This document shows positions 14,400 through 14,645 of a stretch of 64,000 nucleotides of DNA, in pieces; position 1 is the stretch's first letter; each line of letters opens with the position of its first letter. The translations under genes and the position numbers were made by a program. The notes below the pieces were generated by a model. That model ran no database searches and was not told the origin of the DNA. It saw only the letters and a list, made by a program, of their open reading frames with translations. Source of the stretch: Draconibacterium sediminis (GTDB lineage Bacteria; Bacteroidota; Bacteroidia; Bacteroidales; Prolixibacteraceae). The DNA lies in the NCBI RefSeq assembly GCF_000949475.1, contig NZ_JRHC01000008.1, positions 1 through 64,000 on the forward strand. Reading direction: 5' to 3'.

Positions 14400-14415
14400 T
14401 GCCATAACGATGCCA
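14400..14415 (-). promoter_or_regulatory. Candidate sigma-54 (-24/-12) promoter of nifH
   Basis: On the minus strand the sequence TGGCATCGTTATGGCA has the invariant GG and GC with the correct 10-base interval and agrees with 9 of 12 defined positions of the consensus TGGCACG-N4-TTGCW. Transcription would start near 14390, leaving a leader of about 32 bases before the nifH ATG. It is consistent with the GAFTGA-containing activator encoded at 15264-16820. The 364-base gap between nifH and the acetyltransferase gene holds this promoter, an AT-rich stretch (14465-14515), two inverted repeats and a terminator. Confidence 0.6.
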
Positions 14416-14527
14416 AAAAACATGCTCGACAACATATTTTTCGAATTCAAACCACGCCTAATGCATTGATTATCTGCAACTAAAAAAATATTGAAAATTT
14501 TATTCCCAGCAACATTCATGAGGATTA

Positions 14528-14547
14528 ATCCTACATTTTTGTAGGAT
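14528..14547. promoter_or_regulatory. Inverted repeat 1 upstream of nifH, candidate activator site
   Basis: ATCCTACA (14528-14535) and TGTAGGAT (14540-14547) are perfect 8-base arms around TTTT. The centre lies about 148 bases upstream of the predicted nifH start site, within the usual range of sigma-54 enhancer sites. The motif differs from the proteobacterial NifA site TGT-N10-ACA. Binding by the NifA-like protein is inferred. Confidence 0.5.
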
Positions 14548-14629
14548 GAAACCGTAATACACACAATAAGGTGGAAAATTTTAAGAAGCCCATGTTTAAA
14601 GGGCATTCGGGGTGTTAACATTGAGGTAA

Positions 14630-14645
14630 CCTACATTTTGGTAGG
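14630..14645. promoter_or_regulatory. Inverted repeat 2 upstream of nifH, candidate activator site
   Basis: CCTAC (14630-14634) and GTAGG (14641-14645) repeat the core of inverted repeat 1 with the same inner sequence ATTTT and one base changed next to the right arm (CCTACATTTTGGTAGG against CCTACATTTTTGTAGG). Its core begins exactly 100 bases from the core of repeat 1 (14530). Two matching sites at this spacing upstream of a sigma-54 promoter suggest a pair of enhancer sites. Confidence 0.5.

Follow-up and report, generated by a model that had tools for sequence, protein, structure and literature searches.

Reportedly, the study of nif genes in Bacteroidetes is that of Inoue et al. 2015, and a predicted motif for a nif regulator in Desulfovibrionales is said to come from Kazakov et al. 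2015. The closest described systems are those of NifA and of the regulators of the alternative nitrogenases. According to the accessible text of one article, the upstream activator sequence of proteobacterial NifA is TGT-N10-ACA, and AnfA of Rhodobacter capsulatus and other alphaproteobacteria has the consensus TAC-N6-GTA (PMC7294313). For VnfA of Azotobacter vinelandii, the site GT(T/A)C-N6-GTAC is given in the accessible part of a second article (PMC9542535). A motif for DVUA0143 was predicted in 2015 upstream of nif operons in five Desulfovibrionales, as stated in the available portion of that work (PMC4641369). For Bacteroidetes, nifA was found near nif in some genomes, and the main text of that study, as far as it is accessible, is without the words promoter, upstream and sigma (PMC4356463).

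Here, we describe a pair of inverted repeats upstream of nifH in Draconibacterium sediminis, which share their core with the AnfA consensus and carry additional conserved outer letters. The analysis started from 64,000 nucleotides of contig NZ_JRHC01000008.1 (positions 1 to 64,000), a stretch referred to below as the window.

RESULTS

Two inverted repeats lie upstream of a predicted sigma-54 promoter of nifH

The window contains a set of nif genes on the minus strand, adjoined by a gene for a NifA-like protein on the same strand, with the following features:

5263..13501, minus strand: downstream genes of the presumed nifH operon, assigned by profile matches and gene order
5263-6582, minus strand: nifB, presumed nifH operon
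6605-8011, minus strand: nifN-like gene, presumed nifH operon
8110-9438, minus strand: nifE, presumed nifH operon
9612-10994, minus strand: nifK, presumed nifH operon
11134-12765, minus strand: nifD, presumed nifH operon (TIGR01282 above cut-off)
13175-13501 and 12782-13156, minus strand: two P-II genes, presumed nifH operon
13534..14358, minus strand: nifH, the presumed target (TIGR01287, 451 bits against a cut-off of 394)
14400..14415, minus strand: sigma-54 -24/-12 element TGGCATCGTTATGGCA, GG-N10-GC, predicted start near 14390
14530..14545, no strand assigned: proximal inverted repeat CCTACATTTTTGTAGG, candidate NifA enhancer site, position conserved in relatives
14630..14645, no strand assigned: distal inverted repeat CCTACATTTTGGTAGG, second candidate enhancer site
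14663..14698, no strand assigned: perfect inverted repeat AAAGGATGACATCTTTTTAAAAAGATGTCATCCTTT, read directly from the sequence
14723..15190, minus strand: gene for a GNAT acetyltransferase, separating nifA from the nifH promoter region
15264..16838, minus strand: NifA-like enhancer-binding protein, presumed binder of both repeats, adjoining the nif region

Based on gene order and strand, nifH, the two P-II genes and nifDKENB would form a single operon. The nitrogenase encoded downstream of the sites is of the Mo type and not iron-only, as both nifH (TIGR01287) and nifD (TIGR01282) score above their cut-offs. The GG-N10-GC element at 14415-14400 fits a transcription start near 14390. A second, overlapping TGGCAC is present at -46, but relatives align with the element at -57, whose -12 part is weaker in many of them, e.g., with GTGA replacing TTGC. 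On the minus strand, the proximal repeat reads CCTACAAAAATGTAGG (14545-14530; -187 from the nifH ATG; 130 bp from the site start to the TGG of the -24 element) and the distal repeat reads CCTACCAAAATGTAGG (14645-14630; -287 from the nifH ATG). Both have the 16-bp form CCTAC-N6-GTAGG with a TAC-N6-GTA core, differ from each other by 1 base and start exactly 100 bp apart. No TGT-N10-ACA was found within 500 bp upstream of nifH in the window. The perfect repeat at 14663-14698 is likely the terminator of the acetyltransferase gene and likely bounds the nifH regulatory region, and the acetyltransferase itself is not thought to be part of the regulatory system.

The protein encoded at 15264-16838 consists, in order, of a GAF domain, a sigma-54 AAA+ domain and a Fis-type helix-turn-helix (HTH); no NtrC-type N-terminal receiver domain was found in it, and the GAF domain is there instead. 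Its GAFTGA loop reads GHEKGAFTGAD, and its recognition helix is ITERMLGTRLKKY. The NifA equivalog model (TIGR01817) gives a score of 502.2 bits, which is below the NCBI curated cut-off of 528.85, and it is still the best-scoring family. The genome also encodes RpoN (426 bits against a cut-off of 277). Ahead of the GAF domain, Cys5 and Cys12 (counted from MEIKC) are kept in 57/86 and 55/86 aligned NifA-like proteins, respectively, and this N-terminal cysteine pair is possibly a redox or metal switch.

The first-pass annotation of this sequence had proposed a nifH promoter with a correctly spaced -24/-12 element, two related repeats offset by exactly 100 bases, an adjacent regulator with the GAFTGA loop and no classical NifA site of the form TGT-N10-ACA. 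On re-reading, its coordinates and the offset were correct, and the element, the loop within a GAF, AAA+ and Fis-type HTH protein, and the absence of the classical site over 500 bp upstream of nifH were borne out. We consider it very probable that the two repeats are upstream activator (enhancer) sites of the NifA-like protein encoded next door, which would activate nifH by looping.

The repeats are conserved upstream of nifH in Bacteroidota

We compared 100 unique nifH upstream regions, window included, which came from a nifD search of named genomes (80 of 109 loci kept) and an order-wide nifH search of 393 genomes, of which 29 had a match over the cut-off. The best score, in matching letters out of 10, was at least 9/10 in 54 of these 100 upstreams, as against 0.4% of dinucleotide shuffles. 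The Bacteroidota set comprised 66 upstreams (without the window and three NifA-less loci, and with L034, deposited as Chlorobiota, counted in). A site scoring at least 8/10 was present in 62 of the 66, in all 62 between -330 and -130, and TAC-N6-GTA was found in the same interval in 65 of the 66; the upstreams scoring below 8/10 were L026, L070, L104 and L110. A motif-blind dyad search ranked CTAC-N5-TGTA first, with 47 of 57 upstreams (a set that includes the NifA-less L089) where 0.2 would be expected; all 25 of the dyads listed as best are compatible with the CCTAC-N6-GTAGG site. In an alignment of 20 upstreams, the proximal site and the TGGCA box were kept, while the intervening sequence had diverged. 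The CCTAC-N6-GTAGG repeats upstream of nifH are not a product of chance. Conservation in relatives, named beforehand as one of two checks on which the proposal of a sigma-54 nifH promoter with candidate NifA-type enhancer sites could fail, was thus found in 62 of 66 Bacteroidota upstreams, and that proposal is supported.

We also observed a GTGCCAAA block about 10-30 bp downstream of the proximal site in relatives (L012, L023, L025, L028, L037, L039, L041, L042, L044, L045, L082 and others). This block, which is absent in the window, corresponds to the -24 sequence TTTGGCAC in reverse complement. It resembles a -24 element facing the opposite way, with no -12 partner evident by eye.

Distances to the promoter and between the paired sites are kept

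In 59 Bacteroidota upstreams, a site and a -24 box were separated by 100-180 bp, and in 38 of these the distance was 125-131 bp. The script behind these measurements misassigned the -24 box in the window (giving 141 rather than 130 bp) and apparently also in L027, L029, L033, L037, L044 and L090. Most distances are near 128, which left the phase little spread in a Rayleigh-type statistic for helical phasing.

Inverted repeats may also act as RNA or DNA structure, i.e., as a hairpin, terminator or attenuator rather than as protein sites, and the terminator-like hairpin at 14663-14698 lies nearby. For the two repeats, we regard this as extremely improbable. They are upstream of the predicted start and hence outside the nifH transcript, their arms are only 5-6 bp long, the letters of the arms and not pairing alone are conserved, and the spacing to the -24 box persists despite divergence of the intervening sequence.

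A second site is located 99-101 bp away in 24 Bacteroidota upstreams, including the window. It is unlikely, in our judgment, that only the proximal site works, with the distal copy either a degenerating duplicate or an element of the upstream gene. Many Bacteroidota do have a single site near -185, and the distal copy is imperfect in L010, L013 and L016-L018 (in L008, it is the proximal one instead); yet the spacing of 99-101 bp is kept in these 24 upstreams, and in the alignment of 20 upstreams the sequence separating the sites has diverged. This suggests that a second site at a fixed distance is under selection. In L043, L107, L057, L065, L073 and several loci from the composite scans described below, the two sites of a pair are 28-31 bp apart. 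Fixed spacings of this sort would fit enhancer pairs.

In a separate case, L234 (G621), with nifH at 8273, an exact site is located at 7792, some 380 bp away from the -24 box. The weaker TAC/GTA palindromes ATACATAAATGTAACT and GTTACAATATTGTAGC are nearer the box there and may be the working pair.

The sites are rare in the genome and co-occur with a NifA-like protein

Exact CCTAC-N6-GTAGG occurs three times in the 5.99-Mb genome, twice as the nifH pair and once (L266) inside a long open frame, and five other matches with one mismatch (L002-L004, L267 and L268; longer pattern) are all inside open frames. No further targets were found in this genome among the exact and one-mismatch matches; at its three amtB loci, the best site has 2 mismatches.

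In the order sample, proteins matching the NifA model with 440 bits or more were counted as NifA-like. A site of at least 8/10 was present in 23 of 25 nif genomes with such a protein versus none of the three testable ones without it (Fisher p 0.003). The two exceptions, L104 and L110, each have degenerate TAC/CAC-N6-GTA pairs. The testable NifA-less genomes are G326 (L085), G151 (L086) and G387 (L089), and a fourth locus, L114, has no upstream sequence. RpoN was found in all 13 genomes checked, including the four NifA-less ones, and in the three testable ones of these the best match to the NifA model (E ~1e-97) has the strength of AAA+-only matches elsewhere. The sigma factor and activators in general therefore seem not to explain the difference in sites.

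The repeats could also be operators of a different regulator (another sigma-54 activator, a repressor or a nitrogen sensor) that travels with nif, with NifA acting elsewhere. In the window genome, seven additional proteins match the NifA model (one among the matches listed, spanning the AAA+ region only), and Desulfovibrio vulgaris has a similar site together with a different type of HTH. We nevertheless find this explanation rather improbable: nif genomes that lack NifA keep RpoN and weaker activator matches and yet are without the site, in several genomes the sites are flanked by a NifA-like gene on one side and nifH or amtB on the other, and the best 25 dyads from the nifH upstreams leave this site as the only form among them.

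The NifH proteins of L085, L086 and L089 are only 72-75% identical to that of the window, and no sigma-54 box of the strict pattern is present upstream; nif is probably regulated differently in these three genomes.

Changes in the recognition helix accompany changes in the site in several lineages

The aligned Bacteroidales NifA proteins have the recognition helix [S/T]-E-R-x-x-x-x-R, mostly ending in G-x-R. The exception is L139 (SNRKLGLR), in whose genome TTTACATTTTCGTAAA is present in place of the usual site. We built a NifA tree without the HTH and then compared it with the HTH and the sites. A changed HTH was accompanied by a changed site in three tree comparisons (Desulfoluna versus L119/L238, L067/L068 versus L233, and L139 versus L135/L138/L140), in which L233 and L238 had been found through the site, so that only the other tree members are free of that bias. 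The HTH changes occupy separate positions on the tree, and in each case the outer CC/GG has been lost. The Desulfoluna proteins are placed closest to L149, which has an E-R helix; L067, which is without E-R, retains the partial match ACTACATTAATGTAAT (7/10). In many lineages with a changed helix, an AC-N6-GT palindrome with other outer letters is kept.

Outside Bacteroidota, a site of at least 9/10 preceded nifH in three of six E-R genomes versus none of ten without E-R; this count covers the nifD-search loci in which the NifA HTH was located in the alignment, leaves out the others, and treats L046 and L073, with two NifA-like proteins each, as E-R. These observations fit the HTH setting the outer letters of the site, with Desulfovibrio as a counter-example: in D. 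vulgaris RCH1, the near-match ACTACAAAAATGTAGC (8/10) is present upstream of nifH although the presumed regulator, which by gene order would be DVUA0143, has a TPRQ helix. A one-to-one code from the E-R helix to CCTAC-N6-GTAGG is weakened by this case and by L046, L060 and L066, which are E-R loci outside Bacteroidota with no nifH site of at least 9/10. In the L060 genome (Spirochaeta), a 9/10 site, CCTACATATATGTATG, is present at the presumed nifA start (L115:1431), hinting at self-control there.

The site precedes nitrogen genes in two other phyla

We scanned 345, 345 and 288 genomes of three phyla with a composite pattern consisting of the site, 97-127 bp and TGGCA. Matches were obtained in 29 of 345 genomes of the phylum of the window (three nif-linked and mostly without nitrogen genes), 21 of 345 of the phylum of G416 (deposited as Deltaproteobacteria) and 12 of 288 of the phylum of G419 (deposited as Lentisphaerae). 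A reversed control pattern matched at least as many genomes in each scan, and the scans therefore count only through the nitrogen genes beside the matches. Of the matching places, 71 were taken as loci. Nitrogen genes (nif, amtB, glnK or glnA) were present at 19 of these, corresponding to 16 distinct places, while the other 52 had no match to the nitrogen genes searched and represent chance background.

The 16 places concern nifH (the window, L189, L191, L211, L222, L255, L256 and L257), nifE (L252), amtB (L219, L220, L221, L226 and L227), glnK (L223) and glnA (L212), with the amtB, P-II and glutamine synthetase families confirmed by Pfam on representatives. Thirteen of them are neither the window nor in the two centre genomes; L189 and L191 come from the same family, which falls in a different class of the window's phylum. 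In orientation, 13 of the 16 composite matches point toward the nitrogen gene. Those in L189, L191 and L212 point away from it, and there a strong TGGCA...TTGC box (TGGCACGCATATTGCA, TGGCACGCATGTTGCA and TGGCATACCCGTTGCT, respectively) faces the gene. An L241 gene first taken for a glutamine synthetase proved to be lactate-racemase-like and was rejected; glnA at L212/L241 is the divergent neighbor, and the sigma-54 box faces it. The site had been proposed to be specific to Bacteroidota, and this part of the proposal does not hold, since the same site precedes nifH, nifE, amtB, glnK or glnA in two further phyla.

At L219-L221, the sites are situated between amtB and an adjoining NifA-like gene, and at L226 a glutamine-amidotransferase-like gene is located between NifA and the sites. 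Based on this arrangement, the same type of activator appears to serve ammonium uptake in part of that non-Bacteroidota phylum.

Two further observations concern other nif loci. GAC-N6-GTC palindromes (e.g., AAGACATTTTAGTCTT and GTGACATTAATGTCAC) are present in the nifH upstreams of L053, L063, L064, L068, L071, L072 and L079, a possible sister form of the site in Planctomycetes, Omnitrophica and Spirochaetes. Second nifH-like clusters in L231 (G064) and L232 (G300) encode NifH proteins about 52% identical to that of the window and carry nifD/E/K-like genes, with a nifB-like gene in L231. Exact CCTAC-N6-GTAGG was not found at these two clusters, which are possibly an alternative nitrogenase-like system.

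DISCUSSION

By analogy with the established biology of sigma-54 activators, we envisage that a NifA dimer would bind each 16-bp palindrome via the Fis-type HTH, whose recognition helix begins with [S/T]-E-R. NifA bound at the two sites, about 130 and 230 bp ahead of the -24 box, would loop to sigma-54 RNA polymerase and, through contact by the GAFTGA loop, open the promoter by ATP hydrolysis, and the nifH-P-II-P-II-nifDKENB genes would thereby be switched on. CCTAC-N6-GTAGG would be the form used by much of the non-proteobacterial NifA branch in several phyla, mostly with an [S/T]-E-R helix, and some branch members outside Bacteroidota appear to use the site for amtB-glnK or glnA.

More tentatively, and as a view that we hold to be plausible but somewhat less likely to be right than wrong, the AC-N6-GT palindrome family may be the ancestral nitrogen-activator code of NifA/AnfA/VnfA-type proteins in many phyla, with TGT-N10-ACA derived and proteobacterial. 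If so, the family would control nif in some phyla and amtB-glnK or glnA in others, and CCTAC-N6-GTAGG would go with the [S/T]-E-R helix, while the TTTAC or GAC variants would go with changed helices. NifA sites are given as TGT-N10-ACA, from Proteobacteria, in the literature as far as accessible, and scanning genomes for it would leave the nif regulon undetected in Bacteroidota and in relatives from other phyla. With a site, a regulator family and, in several lineages, a co-changing helix defined, nitrogen regulons become predictable in these groups. The pairing of site and helix also allows specificity-swap tests between NifA variants and raises the question of which operator form is ancestral.

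The site had been put forward as not described. A literature search that reached a minority of subscription journals returned no earlier account of the CCTAC-N6-GTAGG form and no NifA site reported for Bacteroidota; the claim does not extend to the TAC-N6-GTA core, which is the AnfA consensus in the accessible text of PMC7294313.

The following comparisons rest on the accessible parts of the sources cited above. Like the proteobacterial NifA system, the window has a 16-bp palindrome upstream of a sigma-54 nifH promoter and a GAF-AAA+-HTH activator, but the outer letters are CCT/AGG instead of TGT/ACA, and the inner AC/GT is strong here. Among our control loci, TGT-N10-ACA was seen in L166 and L167 and not in L169. 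The DVUA0143 system likewise involves a regulator of nif from beyond the classical diazotrophs, for which a site upstream of nif has been predicted, and D. vulgaris RCH1 reads ACTACAAAAATGTAGC; its motif was compared by description, without letters, and the presumed regulator has the TPRQ helix. The VnfA site shares the N6 between the inner letters and the presence of two sites at most VnfA promoters, whereas its outer letters differ and VnfA controls vanadium nitrogenase. The AnfA site is similar in its TAC-N6-GTA core, its dyad symmetry, the pairing of sites, the sigma-54 promoter and the GAF-AAA+-HTH activator. AnfA, however, controls the genes for iron-only nitrogenase, while the sites in the window precede nifH of a Mo nitrogenase, and in the lineage of the window the outer CC/GG is also conserved and the two sites are 100 bp apart. 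The core of the site is already known from AnfA, and CCTAC-N6-GTAGG with its conserved outer letters would be a variant of it.
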